Part shown: positions 2,192 through 38,572 of the stretch, piece after piece
Position numbering within the stretch: position 1 is the first letter of the stretch
Layout: each line of letters begins with the position of its first letter
Source: Candidatus Sulfotelmatobacter sp.
GTDB taxonomy: Bacteria; Acidobacteriota; Terriglobia; Terriglobales; Acidobacteriaceae
NCBI GenBank assembly: GCA_025462865.1
Contig: JAOAPI010000128.1
Span: 62,001-126,000 of the forward strand
DNA length: 64,000 nucleotides
Direction of reading: 5' to 3'
Translations under genes and position numbers: made by a program
The notes under the pieces: generated by a model
Database searches by the model: none
Told to the model about the DNA's origin: nothing
What the model saw: the letters and a program-made list of their open reading frames with translations, nothing else

Positions 2192-2424
2192 GTTGTTTCC
2201 TTATGGTGAAGAATGCGGCAGAGCGCCGAATCGAAGATTATAAACGGTAGGCCTCTTATACGAATCGCGTAGGGACAGCCGCATCGGCTGTTCAGCCAAA
2301 CGCAGCGACGCTCGCACCTTACAGGTTGTCGGAAAGAAACGGGTGGATCAGGCCTTCAGGCCTGCATCAATGCCAGCTCTTGATTTGGGCTTCAGCCCCT
2401 GAGGTTCGTGCCAGGCCGAAGAAT
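2192..2424. repeat. Intergenic repeat block (families H and C)
   Basis: This 233-base gap holds two palindromic intergenic motifs. At about 2265-2295 is a GGGACAGCCGCATCGGCTGT-type hairpin. At 2347-2405 are two linked stem-loops, AGGCCTTCAGGCCT and GGGCTTCAGCCCC. The second type recurs at 21776-21836 and 23186-23244 and, in diverged form, inside pheT (about 29676-29742). No open frame of interest is present. Confidence 0.6.
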
Positions 2425-5736: not shown

Positions 5737-5761
5737 CGCCGCGAAGCCAGTTTTTACTGAA

Positions 5762-5786
5762 AGCTGACAGCTGATAGCTGACAGCT
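5762..5786. repeat. Heptamer array H2 overlapping a stop codon
   Basis: AGCTGAC, AGCTGAT, AGCTGAC plus a partial unit. The last bases overlap the TAG stop of the carbonic-anhydrase-like gene, so the array starts exactly at the gene end. Confidence 0.85.
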
Positions 5787-19883: not shown

Positions 19884-21764
19884 ATGACTTTGACCAACCC
19901 GAGATTGCTCGCTCTCTCCGGCTTTCCCAACGAAAGAGTCCGGGTCATAAAGGACGGCCCGTTGTTCCTCGGACGAGATCCATCCAACCAGGTGGAGGTG
20001 CGCGATCCGGCGGTTTCGCGAAAGCACTGCTCGGTGAGCGAAATTTCCAGCGGCGTTTTTGAAATCGCCGACCTCGAAAGTCAAAACGGGACTTTCGTCA
20101 ACGGAACCTCGGTGAGCCGCAAAACCCTCCAGCATGGCGACCGCATCCGCATAGGGAGCAGCGAGTTCGTTTTCTTCACCGGCCCTGATGACGATGCCCT
20201 GTTGTCATCTTGCCCCGACGGTCAGTGGACGGGCCCCGACTTGAGAGCCGAATGGAGAACACTGTCCCTCGATCCCTCCGGTCTGCCCGCCGATGCTTCC
20301 GGCGTAGGCCGAATGGCTCGCGATCTGAATGCGCTGTTCAAGATTGCGAATGTCATCAATTCAAGCTGCGACACGCAGGCCTTGCAGCGCCAATTGCTCG
20401 AGCTGATTTGCGAAGTGATCCCGGCCGCACAGGCTGCAATCGTGCTTCACCCGGGCCCGCATGAGGAAGCCAGCCCTCCCTGTATCTGGAATAGAAAGGG
20501 CATCACACCTCACGAAATGCTCATCCGCAAAGAATTGGTACAGCGGGCGACTTGGGAACGCTGCGCCGTCTTCACCTCCGATTCGCCTGACACAACAGTC
20601 ACCGAGTACGTGCTCTGCGTGCCACTCGTGGCGGTTGAAAAAATCCTCGGAGTCATTTATCTGAGCTCGCCCTACCCTTCGCCCCCATTCGGCGAGGATC
20701 ACGCCTACTTCCTCAGTTCGGTTTCCCGCATCGCCGCGGTCACGCTCGAGAACCTCTCGAAGCTGGATTCTTTGCGCACCGAGAACCAGCGCCTCAGGGC
20801 GGAGGTTAAAGCTGACAGCAACTTCATCGGCGACACCCGGCCGATGCAGCGCGTCACCGAGTTCATCGCGCGCGTCGCCAAAGGTGATTCGACCGTGCTC
20901 ATCCGCGGCGAGAGTGGAACCGGCAAGGAACTCGTGGCTCGCGCCATTCACGCCAACAGCTTGCGCCCGGACAAACCCTTCGTCGCCATCAATTGCGCCG
21001 CCATACCGGAAACTTTGCTCGAGAGTGAACTCTTCGGCCACGAAAAAGGCGCTTTCACCGGCGCAGTCGGCACCAAGAAGGGCAAGTTCGAAGGCGCGGA
21101 GGACGGGACGCTCTTTCTCGACGAAATCGGAGAGATGTCTCCTCTCTTGCAAGCCAAGCTATTGCGGGTCTTGCAGCAGCGTGAATTCGAACGCCTCGGA
21201 GGAAATCGGCTGCTGCCGTTTAACGCACGCGTCATCGCCGCCACTAACAAGAACCTTGAGCAGGCCATTAAGGCCGCTGAGTTCCGCCAGGATTTGTATT
21301 ACCGCCTGAATGTCGTTTCCGTCACTCTGCCTCCGCTGCGCGAGCATCGTGAGGACATCCCGTTGCTGGCTCTCCATTTCGCCAACAAGTGTGCGGCAAA
21401 GTGCAAGCACGGCTTCACAGGGATCGCTGCCGAAGCCCGCGCTTTGCTGATGCAATACAGTTGGCCGGGCAACGTTCGCGAATTGGAGAACGCCATCGAG
21501 CACGCAATCGTCATGGGACTAACCGACGAAATTCTTCCCGAAGACCTGCCCAACGCGGTGCTCGAGGAACAGTCTTCCGGATTGGACGCCGCGCGCTACC
21601 ACAACACTCTCAACCAGACGAAAAAACAGCTGGTACTCACTGCGCTGGATGAAACCAGCGGCAACCACGTGGAAGCCGCCCGCCTCCTGGGAATTCACCC
21701 CAAATATCTGCACCGCCTGATCCGGAACCTGAACCTGAAATCCGACGTAAAGCGACTCGCGTAA
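19884..21764 (+). CDS. FHA-GAF sigma-54-dependent transcriptional activator
   Basis: 626-residue bacterial enhancer-binding protein. Domains: FHA (about 25-98; Arg31, SRKH at 45-48, NGT at 68-70), which binds phosphothreonine; GAF (about 145-290); AAA+ core with Walker A GESGTGKE (342-349), the sigma-54 contact loop GAFTGA (389-394) and Walker [11 protein letters not shown] (408-417); Fis-type helix-turn-helix at the C-terminus (about 580-620). An FHA domain in place of a receiver implies control by a Ser/Thr kinase or by protein contact. It diverges from a secreted-protein gene with a sigma-54 promoter, its likely target. Confidence 0.95.
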
Positions 21765-21775
21765 GTACGGTGGCG

Positions 21776-21836
21776 CAGCGCTTCAGCGCTGCGATAAGAC
21801 AATGACTCAGAGAAACTGGGCTTCAGCCCCCGAGTC
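21776..21836. repeat. Dispersed repeat family C, copy C2
   Basis: GCGCAGCGCTTCAGCGCTGCG stem-loop, a variable middle, then CTGGGCTTCAGCCCCCGAG. The same two-stem arrangement is at 23186-23244 and, diverged and in reverse orientation, inside pheT at about 29676-29742. Confidence 0.75.
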
Positions 21837-21841
21837 GAGAA

Positions 21842-22457: not shown

Positions 22458-23490
22458 CGCCGCTCCTCGCCCTCCAAAAACAAAAAGCGCAGCTCGCGTT
22501 GAAACACAGACGAGCCGCGCCCAGATTTTTTAGGATTTTTTACCCTGTACTTCCAGTATATCAATTAGCAAAGTGTGATTGGGACACCTTAGCCACAATT
22601 ATTTCCCCTTTCCCTGCCATCACATACCCCGAATCGGGTAATTTCTCCCTATTGACAAGATTTCCCGGAACGCGAAAGAGGACAACGGTTGGTTCGGGAA
22701 CTGTTGAATGATTACCGACTTAGAAAAGCGCGGCGCCCCGCACCAGCCGCGAAAGCGGCGACAGAATGCAGCCCACGGCGCAAGCCGTGGGACAGCCCGC
22801 CCCCGAAACCGCCAAGCCAGGGCGAAGCCCGGCGCCCCTTTTCATCGCCCGCTTGAACCGTGTCATCTTGAGCGGAGTGAAGGGATTCGCCCCGCGAATC
22901 CCTTCGCGCAGTCGAAAGACCCCATGCCCGCCTGCGCCGCCAACTGGCTTGTAGAGGAGTTCTCACCACGACCCTCGCCGGACGAAGTTTGTACATAGAA
23001 CTCCCTGCCGGGCCGCTGTTGCCGCCAACACGCATGGGGTTTCTCGACTCCGCATGACCATCCTCCGGACGCCCACGCTCCGTCCGGGATGACAGAGCCG
23101 AGGAGGAGCCGGCAAGAAGTGTCGTTCCGAGTGCAGCCCGCACCATCGCCCCGTCTTCTCCGCGAACCCGTCCCGACCGCGCAAGAGCGGCGCTTCAGCG
23201 CCGCGTCAGCCTGCCAAAAGTGAACCGGGCTTTCAGCCCCCGACACCTGTCTTCCTGAGCGCAGCAAACCGATTCGCCCTTTGAATCGGTTTGCAAAGTC
23301 GAAGGACCCCCTTACCCGTTCGCCCGACCACCAACCCCGCAAGGCATTTCCATCACGTCGCCACTTGCACCGGACGGGCACGGATCGAGAAGGCAGGGAG
23401 GCACCAACGGGAAGGGCACGAGTTTTACTCGTGCCGTAGAAAATGACGGCCGACAGAGCGGAAAACGACCGGAGACACGCAAATTATTTA
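22458..23490. repeat. One-kilobase repeat cluster without genes
   Basis: No convincing gene in 1033 bases. The first 250 bases are AT-richer. From 22741 come, in order: a family D unit (22741-22840, CCAGCCGCGAAAGCGGCGA then CCCACGGCGCAAGCCGTGGG), family A copy A5 (22861-22930, 12-bp stem GAAGGGATTCGC), an inverted A-like copy (23034-23094), family C copy C3 (23186-23244) and family A copy A6 (23246-23318). Long frames here (for example 22863-23381) are translations of repeats. Confidence 0.75.
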
Positions 23491-27456: not shown

Positions 27457-27541
27457 TCAGTGGTAAGTGTTCAGTGATTGGTGGCCAGAAAAGTCAGTCG
27501 AAGGTTTCGCTGACCACTAGCCACTGATCACTGCCCACTGA
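27457..27541. repeat. Inverted pair of heptamer arrays H5 between rpmI and rplT
   Basis: Left array TCAGTGG-TAAGTGT-TCAGTGA-TTGGTGG (27457-27484) begins right after the rpmI stop; right array CCACTAG-CCACTGA-TCACTGC-CCACTGA (27514-27541) is its approximate reverse complement. Together they can fold into a long imperfect hairpin in the operon mRNA. Confidence 0.85.
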
Positions 27542-27617
27542 TTCAGGCGCGTGAAGAGGTCAGAGAATCATCCTTACCTCCAGCCGCCATAAATAGAAAG
27601 AAAAAAAGGAGAACACC

Positions 27618-27974: not shown

Positions 27975-27976
27975 CT

Positions 27977-28020
27977 TTCAGCTCGCAGTTCTCAGCTCTC
28001 GGCTTTCAGTCATCAGCTGT
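27977..28020. repeat. Heptamer array H6 after rplT
   Basis: TTTCAGC-TCGCAGT-TCTCAGC-TCTCGGC-TTTCAGT-CATCAGC-TGTCA, degenerate 7-bp periodicity starting within a few bases of the rplT stop codon. Confidence 0.75.
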
Positions 28021-28174: not shown

Positions 28175-29347
28175 ATGGCTTACACCATTTCCAAGTTGAC
28201 GGATTATTCGGCGGCGGCGCTGGAACGCGCCTCCGCTGAACTTTTTTCTGCGCTCGGCGATGAAGCTTCTACTGTGAAGAACGAGGGTGATTGGAAGATC
28301 TTTCGCGATCGATGGATGGCGCGAAAGAACGGCGTGTTGACGCAGATTAACGATCTCTGGCTGAAGGCTGCTCCGAAAGAAGCGAAGCGCGAAGTCGGGC
28401 TGCGAGTAAACCTGATCAAAGAACAGGTTGAACAACAAGTAGCGGACGCTAAGGTCCGATATCAGATTCCCGAACTTCCCATCTCAAGCGCGACGTCCGA
28501 AATTTCTGAGACCAACCTTCGGCGGGATGCGATCGGCAAAGCAGGAATTATAGACATTACCTTACCAGGTATCCGCCGCCCCATTGGGGCGGAGCACCCG
28601 GTGGTCAAAACGACGAACGAGATGGTGCGAGTGTTTCAGAGGCTTGGCTACTCGGTGGCCGAGGGGCCCGTCGTCGAGACGGATTATTACAATTTCGAAT
28701 CATTAAATTTTCCGCCGAACCATCCGGCGCGCGATACGCAGGATACTTTATTCATCGCCGGGCAGCAGGCGAAGCCTCAGCGGGAGCGGTTGCTGTTGCG
28801 TACGCATACTTCTCCGGTGCAGATTCGGACCATGGAAAAGATGCGGCCTCCGCTGCGCATTGTGATTCCCGGGACCGTGCATCGCAACGATCCGCTTGAT
28901 GCCAGCCACTCTCCGATGTTTCACCAGATCGAGGGGCTGGCGGTCGACACCAACATCACGTTCGGCGATTTGAAAGGGACGCTCGATCACGCCATGAAGG
29001 AGTTTTTTGGGTCGAGTGTGAAGACAAGTTTTCGTCCGTCATTTTTTCCGTTCACCGAGCCGAGCGCGGAGATGTTTGTTTCGTGCTTCATCTGCGGCGG
29101 AAGCGGGAGACGAGGAACAGACCCGTGCCGTCCGTGCAAGCAGACGGGATGGATTGAAATTCTCGGGTGCGGCATGGTCGATCCTAATGTGTTTGAGTTT
29201 GTGAAGGACAACGGGTATGACCCGAGGAAAGTTTCAGGGTTTGCGTTTGGCATGGGCGCGGATAGGATCGCGCTGTTGAAGTATGGAGTGGATGATATCC
29301 AGTTGTTTTTTCAGGGGGATGTCAGATTCCTGCGGCAGTGGGCGTAG
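28175..29347 (+). CDS. pheS: Phenylalanyl-tRNA synthetase alpha subunit
   Basis: Catalytic subunit of the (alpha-beta)2 enzyme. 390 residues: N-terminal coiled-coil (about 10-100), then the class II core with HPVVKTTNEMVRVFQRLGY, motif 2 (LRIVIPGTVHRNDPLDASHSPM, split around 230-250) and motif 3 (GFAFGMGADRIALLKYG). The region CFICGGSG...CRPCKQTGWIEILGCGMV is the usual Cys-rich loop of this branch, slightly longer than most. The ATG at 28175 has GGGAAG close upstream. Confidence 0.97.
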   Translation: MAYTISKLTDYSAAALERASAELFSALGDEASTVKNEGDWKIFRDRWMARKNGVLTQINDLWLKAAPKEAKREVGLRVNLIKEQVEQQVADAKVRYQIPELPISSATSEISETNLRRDAIGKAGIIDITLPGIRRPIGAEHPVVKTTNEMVRVFQRLGYSVAEGPVVETDYYNFESLNFPPNHPARDTQDTLFIAGQQAKPQRERLLLRTHTSPVQIRTMEKMRPPLRIVIPGTVHRNDPLDASHSPMFHQIEGLAVDTNITFGDLKGTLDHAMKEFFGSSVKTSFRPSFFPFTEPSAEMFVSCFICGGSGRRGTDPCRPCKQTGWIEILGCGMVDPNVFEFVKDNGYDPRKVSGFAFGMGADRIALLKYGVDDIQLFFQGDVRFLRQWA

Positions 29348-29410
29348 AAGCTTTTAGCCATTAGCTCTTGGCTTTTAGCTAAAGGCCAAGAGCTAAAAGC
29401 CAAAAGCTTC
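29347..29410 (+). repeat. Heptamer-built nested hairpin between pheS and pheT (H7)
   Basis: Nearly the whole 67-base gap is palindromic: outer stem GAAGCTTTT / AAAAGCTTC (29347-29355, 29402-29410) and two mutually exclusive inner stems, AGCTCTTGGC / GCCAAGAGCT and TTGGCTTTTAGCT / AGCTAAAAGCCAA. It is composed of GCTTTTA/GCTCTTG-type heptamers and occupies the place where the pheT ribosome site would be. Confidence 0.85.
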
Positions 29411-29414
29411 ATTC

Positions 29415-31670
29415 ATGAAAATTTCTTCATCATGGGTGCGTGAATTTGTTGATCTATCCGTCGATGACCGGCGGCTGGCGGAGGATCTGACTGCCGTCGG
29501 GATTGCTGTTGAGGGGATCAGCGGATCGGGCGCGGATACCGTTTTCGAGATGGAGATTGGGACGAACCGTCCGGACGCGATGAATCATTATGGCGTCGCG
29601 CGGGAGGCGGCGGCGATTTATGACTTGCCGCTGAAGGAGCTGTCAGCTTTCAGCTGTCAGCTTTCAGCGAAGGCATCGGGGGCCAAAGCCCAGTCCAGTG
29701 TTAAGGCGTCTAACGCTGCGCAGAAGCGGCGTTCCTCCACGGGGGGTGGCGCGAAGAAGGCCTCAGCGGCTAAAGCCGATTCTTCTTCGGCCTCTCGCGG
29801 CGCGGCTGGAAGCCGCGCCCCTTCAAAGCAATCCTCTCAACGAGCGTCCGAAGACGCGGCCTTCCCTATAACTGTCGAAGAGCCGGAGCTTTGTCCGCGG
29901 TTTTCGGCGCGGGTCATTCGTGGGACAACGATAAAGCCTTCGCCGGAGAAGATTGCGCATCGCTTGCAACTGCTCGACCAGCGCCCAATCAGCAATGCTG
30001 TCGACGCCACCAATTATGTTTTGTGGGAGATGGGGAAGCCCACGCATGTTTTTGATATGGATTTACTGGAGGGCGGCAGGCTGATTATCCGGCGCGCGAA
30101 AGATGGCGAGAAGTTGAAGACGCTCGATGGTGTGGAGCGCACGCTTTCTTCCGAAGATCTTGTCGTCGCGGACGCGAAGCGGCCGGTCGGGCTCGCGGGA
30201 GTGATGGGCGGATTCGACACCATGATTACCGATAAGACCAAGAATGTTCTGATCGAGTCGGCGTGGTGGGACCCGGGGACGGTGCGGAAGACGTCGCGCC
30301 GGCACGGGATTCATACGGACGCTTCGCACCGGTTTGAGCGCGGCGCGGATTTTGAGTCGACGGTTTTGTCCTGCGATCTGGTCGCGAAGCTGATTCTGGA
30401 ATCGGGCGGCGGAGAATTGGTGGGCGGCGCGATTGATGTGGTCTCGCGACAAATGGATCAGGCCCCGATTGTGTTGCGCCTCTCCGAGGTGCATCGCATA
30501 CTCGGCAGCAAACTGACCACGGGAGAGATTTTCCGCATCCTGAAGAAGCTTGGCTTTGGCGTGATTCCGGAAGGGCAGGCTGACGCGAAGTTCCGCGTCC
30601 AGATTCCCAGTTGGCGGCTGGATGTGGAACGCGAAATCGATTTGATCGAAGAAATCGCGCGGCTGCACGGCTACGACAAATTTGAAAATACGTTGCCGGC
30701 TTACAGGGGCGCGGTGGTCGAACTGCCGCACGCGGCCGCGGATGCGACTTTGCGTGAGCGGGCCTTGGCGCTGGGATACAACGAGGCGGTGTCGCTGACG
30801 TTTATTTCGCACGCGGCGGCAGAGAGTTTTTCTTCCGGCGCGGCGGTGCTCGAGGTGGAGAATCCTCTGAGCGAAGAAGCGTCGGTGATGCGGACGTCAC
30901 TGGCTCCGGGGATGCTCGACATGCTGGCGCGGAATTTGAATCGCGATGCGGAAGACGTGCGCCTGTTTGAGATGGGTCGGGTTTATGAAATGCGCGGCGG
31001 AGAGCGGGTTGAGCCGGCGCGCTTGTGCCTGGGGGCAACACTGACGGCGGTGAAGAACGCGCTGCCTGCGGGTGCGGTGCTCGATGTCAGCAAGGGCGAA
31101 CATGCCGCGGCGGCCGAGACTTTCCGTTCGTTCAAGGGGGATGTTGAGAATTTGCTGGCTGCGTTTGCGCATAACCAGTTGAGTTTCGATCGGGAGACGG
31201 CGGAGTATTTTCATCCGGGAAGGTCCGCGCGGGCGATCATGGATGGGGCGGCTGTGGCTCAGTTCGGGCAGATTGCGGACGATGTGAAGTCCGAGAGGAA
31301 GCTGCGGCAGGATGTTTTTCTGGCGGAGATCGATTTGGAGCAGCTTCATAGGCGCGGGCTGCGGCAAGTGCGGTTTGCGCCGTTGGGAAAATATCCGGCG
31401 GTGGAGCGCGATTTTTCGTTTGTGTTTAGCGATGATATGGGATTTGAGGCGATGCGGCGGGCGGTGATGGGGTTGGGCATTCCCGAGTTAAGTGAATTCA
31501 AAGCGGTGGAGATCTTTCGCGGCGGGGCGATTCCGACGGGAAAGTATTCCATTTTGCTGCGGGCGCGATTGCAGTCCGATGAGGGAACGCTGCGGGATGA
31601 ACAGATTGCAGCATGGTCGGGGCAGATTGTGAAGGCGTTGCAGGAACTCGGTGGAGTTCAGCGGGTATAG
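29415..31670 (+). CDS. pheT: Phenylalanyl-tRNA synthetase beta subunit with repeat-derived insertion
   Basis: 751 residues. The order is odd at the N-terminus: after about 40 residues the protein passes straight to FEMEIGTNRPDAMNHYGVAREAAAIY, so the EMAP-II-like tRNA-binding domain normally found here is missing. The B3/4 editing domain (ITVEEPELCPRFSARVI, about 155-330), B5, catalytic-like core and C-terminal anticodon (FDX-ACB) domain are present. Between residues about 76 and 150 lies a low-complexity Ser/Ala/Lys insertion (AKASGAKAQSSVKASNAAQK and more) encoded by heptamer and palindromic repeats typical of intergenic DNA. No Shine-Dalgarno is visible; a hairpin precedes the ATG. Confidence 0.95.
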   Translation: MKISSSWVREFVDLSVDDRRLAEDLTAVGIAVEGISGSGADTVFEMEIGTNRPDAMNHYGVAREAAAIYDLPLKELSAFSCQLSAKASGAKAQSSVKASNAAQKRRSSTGGGAKKASAAKADSSSASRGAAGSRAPSKQSSQRASEDAAFPITVEEPELCPRFSARVIRGTTIKPSPEKIAHRLQLLDQRPISNAVDATNYVLWEMGKPTHVFDMDLLEGGRLIIRRAKDGEKLKTLDGVERTLSSEDLVVADAKRPVGLAGVMGGFDTMITDKTKNVLIESAWWDPGTVRKTSRRHGIHTDASHRFERGADFESTVLSCDLVAKLILESGGGELVGGAIDVVSRQMDQAPIVLRLSEVHRILGSKLTTGEIFRILKKLGFGVIPEGQADAKFRVQIPSWRLDVEREIDLIEEIARLHGYDKFENTLPAYRGAVVELPHAAADATLRERALALGYNEAVSLTFISHAAAESFSSGAAVLEVENPLSEEASVMRTSLAPGMLDMLARNLNRDAEDVRLFEMGRVYEMRGGERVEPARLCLGATLTAVKNALPAGAVLDVSKGEHAAAAETFRSFKGDVENLLAAFAHNQLSFDRETAEYFHPGRSARAIMDGAAVAQFGQIADDVKSERKLRQDVFLAEIDLEQLHRRGLRQVRFAPLGKYPAVERDFSFVFSDDMGFEAMRRAVMGLGIPELSEFKAVEIFRGGAIPTGKYSILLRARLQSDEGTLRDEQIAAWSGQIVKALQELGGVQRV
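29640..29860 (+). repeat. Repeat cluster inserted in frame in pheT
   Basis: Starts with a perfect heptamer array CTGTCAG-CTTTCAG-CTGTCAG-CTTTCAG (29640-29667). A diverged family C unit follows (29676-29742, CGGGGGCCAAAGCCCAGT then GCTGCGCAGAAGCGGCG), then AGCGGCTAAAGCCG and GGCGCGGCTGGAAGCCGCGC stem-loops (29764-29820). The reading frame stays open through all of it. Confidence 0.85.
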
Positions 31671-38472: not shown

Positions 38473-38506
38473 CCCCACTTCTCGCAAAAACATGCGAGAA
38501 ATGGGG
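38473..38506. terminator. Hairpin upstream of the pseudouridine synthase gene
   Basis: CCCCACTTCTCGCA pairs with TGCGAGAAATGGGG (one mismatch in 14) around AAAACA. It is 45 bases after the propeller gene. There is no T tract, but the stem is strong; the sequence type (GCGAGAAATGGGGCACCC) may also be a dispersed intergenic motif. Confidence 0.55.
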
Positions 38507-38572
38507 CACCCCCATATAGCCACTCCGCGCCCCTCAGCGCGCGTCCGGAGGACGTCTGGTATCCTCCAGCGA

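Follow-up and report, generated by a model that had tools for sequence, protein, structure and literature searches.

The locus described here raises the question of how the beta subunit of phenylalanine-tRNA ligase (PheT), part of an essential enzyme, acquired a Ser/Ala/Lys-rich stretch that puts 63-73 additional residues between its two flanking conserved blocks. The window, i.e. the whole 64,000-nucleotide stretch of DNA that was analysed (G000:C69:62001-126000), belongs to a 6.08 Mb draft genome of 189 contigs, and its pheT gene (29415..31670, + strand) encodes the subunit as a single open frame of 751 aa. This is the sole pheT found (one match genome-wide); it scores 543 bits against the NCBIfam model TIGR00472 (cut-off 402.65) and represents the short form of the protein, without a match to the tRNA_bind domain and with the Pfam B3_4 domain at residues 160-330. 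The variable linker insert (29643..29861, + strand) comprises the 73 residues 77-149 and is bounded by a first conserved block that ends in LPLKEL and a second that opens with FPITVEEPELCPRF. Residues 78-140 (29646-29834) are unmatched in P. aeruginosa PheT (4p71), with the gap falling between residues 190 and 193 of the latter. An AlphaFold model based on an alignment of 25 close sequences has a mean pLDDT of 41.1 and a pTM of 0.24, with 568 of 751 residues below 50; since pLDDT is low even in the conserved core, the model speaks neither for nor against a disordered surface loop.

Examination of the insert at the DNA level reveals a 7-nt array followed by two head-to-tail copies of an element that we term R1. 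The array (29638..29668, + strand) has 4.4 units of the type AGCTGTC/AGCTTTC, was scored as AGCTGTCAGCTTTC x 2.2 with 100% matches, and is read as LSAFSCQLSA. A sequence-only reading of this DNA had proposed an in-frame cluster of repeats in pheT, including a perfect heptamer array and one diverged double stem-loop. The cluster is borne out by the single open frame, the extra residues and the dispersed copies elsewhere, and the array by the above matches; the double stem-loop is likewise present, but in two copies rather than one, namely a diverged copy (29671..29744, + strand; 30.4 bits) read as KASGAKAQSSVKASNAAQKRRSSTG and a well-preserved copy (29758..29830, + strand; 74.3 bits) read as KASAAKADSSSASRGAAGSRAPSKQ. 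That the insert should have copies elsewhere in the genome also held: a search of the genome's own DNA with 251 bases around it matched at least 13 further sites at E<=1e-3, the highest-ranking among the matches listed being C62:12577-12731, with 74% identity over 154 bases (E 1.6e-15). An Rfam search of the insert gave no match at gathering scores.

R1 is a 73-nt double stem-loop, which in an alignment of ten copies begins with CCTCAG and continues with a 4-bp stem bearing a TAAA-like loop, a spacer, an 8-bp stem and then CTTTCAAAGC. Its copies were sought with a covariance model trained on ten copies, none of them from pheT, of which one (C107:100830) sits inside a gene for an MBL-fold protein and the other nine are absent from the listed open frames; the model was preferred to a strict scan for perfect stems, which recovered 11 places only. 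In its own genome R1 has at least 94 matches at E<=0.1 and at least 85 at E<=5.1e-4. Among the latter as listed, the 74.3-bit pheT copy ranks sixth, the five above it being training copies, and it is the best R1 copy outside the training set. With at least 85 copies, R1 fits the description of a short dispersed palindrome that occurs in tens to hundreds of copies, mostly outside genes. Head-to-tail dimers with similar spacing occur elsewhere, the gap being 14 nt in pheT and 19 and 9 nt at C62. At E<=1e-5, in a survey with stricter filters than the own-genome search, R1 was detected in 37/37 genomes of the genus, in at least one of 14 from another family of the order and in at least three of 10 others of the class.

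Three further R1 copies lie in the window, all on the - strand. The copy at 21763..21838 (61.4 bits) is situated just past the preceding gene, with a 2-nt overlap with the gene end, and those at 23175..23248 (55.3 bits) and 2336..2407 (37.3 bits) are outside predicted genes; the first two served as training copies. These two correspond to intergenic sites that the sequence-only reading had placed at 21776 and 23186, whereas at the third site that it named, 27223, the sequence is of the heptamer type and does not match R1. A pheT start at 29964, obtained with our own gene finder, was dropped because with the start so trimmed the pheT copies of R1 are miscalled as intergenic; in its place we used open frames with a codon score >8 on either flank.

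The heptamer arrays are mainly an intergenic class in this genome. In a 535-kb sample period 7 was the commonest, with 33 merged arrays of period 7, 14, 21 or 28, and one array besides that of pheT lies inside predicted genes. An array at 5757..5786 of the window is outside predicted genes, and a stretch overlapping it matches the pheT array at 94% identity when read in the opposite sense. The pheS-pheT spacer (29347..29410) holds a 7/14-nt periodic, self-complementary repeat with 32-nt arms of 88% identity. More generally, spacers of the infC-rpmI-rplT-pheS-pheT cluster (27510-27542, 27975-28009 and 29347-29410; infC, rpmI, rplT and pheS named from their reading frames) are occupied by 7/14-nt periodic arrays. 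The window also contains a 6S RNA (RF00013; 35778-35967, + strand, 57.3 bits) and an Acido-Lenti-1 RNA (RF01687; 22745-22791, - strand, 42.5 bits), both at or above the gathering score.

A link to mobility is provided by tyrosine transposases. The genome has eight Y1_Tnp matches, two of which (at C141 and C62) have inverted R1 copies on both sides, 61-138 nt away; by a crude estimate the chance of such flanks at two of eight genes is ~1.7e-9. Both of these genes match NF047646 (REP_Tyr_transpos) with 106.6 and 112.2 bits (cut-off 80). Among the matches listed, inverted R1 flanks are also present at G010:C20:8358-8762 (16-32 nt away), with a similar layout at G013:C16:9557-9955 (90 and 212 nt). 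As inverted copies flank two of the eight Y1 genes, and the model assigns both genes to the REP-associated type, R1 resembles a RAYT/TIRYT-type repeat, and in being a dispersed family with inverted copies around a tyrosine transposase it has the features by which TIRYT-type TIRs are recognized. The tail of the transposase frame at C141 overlaps an R1 copy; at L162 13888-14505 R1 element sequence encodes the C-terminal end of a RAYT frame. We infer that a RAYT-type transposase moves R1. Several results count against this part of the explanation: the other six Y1_Tnp matches have no R1 within 1.5 kb; an inverted R1 pair with RAYT-like spacing at C152 encloses no RAYT detectable by tblastn at E<=1; and inspection by eye of the junctions of 22 PheT linkers revealed no consistent target-site duplication. 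The 5' side of the hairpin also has no GTAG/GGAG foot, the conserved box in the ten-copy alignment, read by eye, being CCTCAG; R1 is for this reason not filed as a canonical REP.

Comparisons across relatives reveal that the PheT linker is a site of recurrent change. The closest relatives by PheT go by names such as Candidatus Sulfotelmatobacter, Acidobacteriaceae and Terriglobia, which make the host probably a Sulfotelmatobacter; drafts of the genus range from 3.5 to 8.2 Mb. The linker has 15-88 residues in 115 of 120 proteins, the other five not fitting the linker pattern, and 42 of the 115 display none of the repeat-derived motifs that were sought. At the DNA level R1 is found in the linker at 22 of 78 named loci (E<=3.1e-8), a count that leaves out L095 and L107, where the PheT N-terminus is missing, and does not count L106 (E 0.015 only). 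Empty sites are present in close kin of R1-bearing forms. On a tree of 81 PheT rows the presence of R1 requires at least 11 changes of state, seven of them forced by starred branches; this was a quick tree, built without the linker and without L148, L154 and L065 (too short), with weak support for 34 of its 78 inner branches, and it counts changes with gain and loss indistinguishable. The sequence-only reading had asked whether the segment is strain-specific and flanked by conserved residues. The conserved flanks are there, but the segment is not specific to a strain and varies instead between lineages of the genus. A conserved homologous segment at the site, named there as counter-evidence, is absent from the more distant PheT proteins examined, their linkers being mostly short.

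PheT is not the only host protein. The same reading held the elements to be otherwise intergenic, and this must be given up, since three more genes of this genome, namely recN, rlmN and one for an MBL-fold protein, carry R1 in frame. Of the 85 R1 copies listed, five lie in clearly conserved coding frames: two in pheT and one each in recN (TIGR00634, 514 bits), rlmN (TIGR00048, 354 bits) and the gene for an MBL-fold hydrolase, whose best model is the YtnP lactonase (177 bits, under the cut-off of 425). They were retained from 13 listed by an open-frame test, which would miss copies in genes of weak codon score; the other eight were set aside as start extensions, end overlaps or undecided. The copies in recN and in the MBL-fold gene have the opposite orientation. 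Among relatives, R1 is found in the insert at 15 of 29 RlmN loci, five of 30 MBL loci and three of 28 RecN loci, with RlmN L304 and RecN L281-L282 left out of these counts. Within the genus the MBL site is empty (nine residues) at 14 of 24 parsed loci and has 24-94 residues at the remaining 10, while the insert site varies from 20 to 59 residues in RecN (22 parsed) and from 27 to 103 in RlmN (25 parsed); eight of 30 RecN sites, five of 30 RlmN sites and six of 30 MBL sites were not parsed. Within genes, R1 copies of the same orientation are in phase 1 and those of the opposite orientation in phases 0 and 1 (in genes other than pheT the phase was taken at the first base only), and the single phase of the former would follow if the TAA in the first loop ruled out another. 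In L316, L319, L322 and L320 the MBL loop is filled by different inserts specific to their lineages (CHPEE- and SRAKRGIS-like peptides), whose appearance suggests translated copies of further repeats.

In light of these contextual connections, we consider it probable that the repeats of the PheT insert belong to dispersed families found normally between genes, that they landed in an enzyme loop able to tolerate them and that they are read through in frame. RAYT-type transposases would spread hairpin DNA in single-stranded form, and most insertions within genes would be purged. The survivors would be those in surface linkers that offer a stop-free frame and a total length in multiples of three, giving rise to a Ser/Ala/Lys-rich linker peptide; in PheT an insertion in the linker ahead of the B3/4 domain would be tolerated. 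Later repeats could then replace or join earlier ones; the loop would remain available as a landing pad over long periods, and the enzyme would be little affected. By the same reasoning the full PheT would be translated with its insert, the insert would lie at the surface, and its effect would be near-neutral.

The reading frame bears directly on two alternatives. If the insert were skipped by ribosomal bypassing or cut from the RNA, its frame would be irrelevant; the stable hairpins at 29636-29840 (z-score -2.75) speak for this view. Bypassing would require neither frame nor the lack of stops, whereas at 76 of 76 gap-free pheT loci the segment is a multiple of three without a stop codon, across 29 different lengths; we therefore rejected this possibility as very improbable. 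The same observation makes an artefact of metagenome assembly or gene calling harder still to credit. Such an artefact would be in keeping with the origin of the relatives, 79 of 80 named ones being titled as MAGs (from samples that by title are mostly soil and bog), and with L100 and L133, two loci on contigs with N in the segment that are out of frame and were set aside; but the frame holds in the 76 loci without gaps, and similar inserts recur across numerous separate assemblies and sources. It is also conceivable, if improbable, that selection maintains the insert because it has taken on a role, for instance in tRNA contact, regulation or condensate formation. Its occurrence in many species, with a Ser/Ala/Lys-rich peptide following the first conserved block, points in this direction, as does the pairing of the R1 stems, which involves 93.1% of cells in 33 pheT copies. 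For 22 copies in the other genes the value is 95.1%, and for 18 copies located elsewhere it is 94.6%, while shuffled controls have means of 72-79%, all of these percentages leaning upward because the alignment was fitted to the structure. Selective retention is hard to reconcile with a linker of such variable length that has unrelated content or is empty in close kin.

A more serious contender, which we nevertheless regard as rather unlikely, is a single ancient insertion in PheT followed by repeated deletion together with decay or gene conversion, instead of repeated insertion at a hot spot. It would account for the fact that linker copies of the same orientation share one codon phase and start mostly near pheT nt 229-262, and that the recN copies of three species agree in orientation and phase. 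It does not readily account for the nature of what occupies the site. L092 and L103, which form one branch with a support of 99, have R1 in the opposite orientation. L078 has R1, whereas in its sister L080 (joint path 0.035) the place of R1 is taken by a different palindrome of 38 nt, which has at least 40 further matches in the L080 genome, two of them 100% identical over 38 nt. Repeats of this second family occur in inserts of PheT (L080 and L144), RecN (four loci) and the MBL-fold protein (three loci) in different frames, being read, for example, as PLLAKDARNGAP in PheT, RKGREKWGTQ in RecN and HPLAEDARRVGHP in the MBL-fold protein; several of these nine matches are weak, some of those in MBL and RecN having 76-80% identity (E 2e-4 to 0.002). 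A copy of the L080 palindrome is also seen in the window at 38473-38511, with 89.7% identity. In G037, which belongs to another family, a third repeat, a double palindrome of ~95 nt, is present twice in PheT, in the same linker and further upstream (L069 720-845 and downstream); it has at least 47 matches in that genome, both pheT copies included, and R1 is not found there at E<=1e-5 among the matches listed. Finally, at a second PheT site, before ENPLSEE, an R1-like peptide is present in 10 of 120 proteins. Repeated landing and turnover of unrelated repeats remains our preferred explanation for the PheT linker.

This explanation relates R1 to elements described in other bacteria. Rickettsia palindromic elements (RPEs) occur in genes in more than one orientation and reading frame. 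R1 resembles them in this respect, being present in genes in both orientations and in phases 0 and 1, and resembles both RPEs and the WPEs of Wolbachia in being in frame in several unrelated conserved genes (pheT, recN, rlmN and the MBL-fold gene). The likeness to the in-frame palindromes of Rickettsia, here in an essential enzyme, had been suggested by the sequence-only reading, and it gains support from the homology of the repeats, the conserved flanks, the empty sites, the frame kept at 76 of 76 loci and the other genes affected. The account needed widening, however, to two copies in pheT, a link to RAYT-type transposases, more target genes and replacement by unrelated repeats. R1 differs from RPEs, which are here compared by description, in its host phylum (Acidobacteriota), in flanking a RAYT-type transposase gene, in the reuse of one PheT site by unrelated families and in its shorter unit of 73 nt, that of RPEs being given as 105-146 bp in a passage of PMC2229807. 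The same paper, citing Abergel 2006, mentions an RPE-bearing Gmk that is translated and active, and a passage of PMC3767692 points to the biotin ligase gene as a possible hot spot that Rickettsia and Wolbachia share.

A second comparison is with REPs. Section 15 of Di Nocera et al. 2013 (PMC3733652) reports REPs within ORFs of DNA-repair genes, tRNA synthetases and a tRNA-modifying enzyme; as intragenic REPs in tRNA synthetases are thus in print, the general kind of event is already known. According to the same paper, TIRYT genes of Acidobacteria are bounded by terminal inverted repeats, and in Koribacter versatilis one such repeat constitutes a repeated DNA family. Like the intragenic REPs and TIRtrons described there, R1 occurs inside genes and as inverted copies around a tyrosine transposase (PMC3733652); sections 15-16 of that paper describe neither acidobacterial TIRs inside genes nor swapping at the same site. 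The nearest named kind for R1 is the repeat flanking acidobacterial TIRYT genes, the comparison with the Koribacter ORF1552 TIR being by description only. Quentin et al. 2018 (PMC6006769), in a passage on TnpA_REP class 3, describe Y1 transposases of Acidobacteria that have multi-copy secondary structures of an atypical form on their flanks, with ~600 such structures in Solibacter usitatus; the foot given for that class is CnGA, whereas R1 starts with CCTCAG. In its manner of working R1 thus parallels the RPEs and intragenic REPs, as portrayed in the pertinent passages of PMC3733652, PMC2229807, PMC3767692 and PMC10969869. What appears new is the RAYT-linked R1 family, its acidobacterial setting and the turnover of unrelated repeats at the same site; among the open-licence PMC papers listed, none was seen to report palindromes in frame in genes of Sulfotelmatobacter or other Acidobacteriota.

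The best-known cases of translated selfish DNA are those of Rickettsia and Wolbachia; as the genomes of these bacteria are reduced, its persistence there is readily put down to weak selection. We tentatively raise a broader possibility, short of an even chance in our estimation, that the same loops of core enzymes serve across Acidobacteriota as long-lived landing pads: unrelated palindromes would invade the PheT linker independently and in both orientations, an essential tRNA synthetase would evolve through the exchange of translated selfish modules, and coding DNA would in effect become a second niche for the repeats. With 3.5-8.2 Mb drafts, a plausible transposase and closely related members whose sites are occupied, empty or swapped, the genus makes the origin, survival and loss of insertions in essential proteins amenable to testing. 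Translated repeats of this sort also explain some of the lineage-specific, low-complexity inserts in these four proteins, inserts that might otherwise be mistaken for functional domains.
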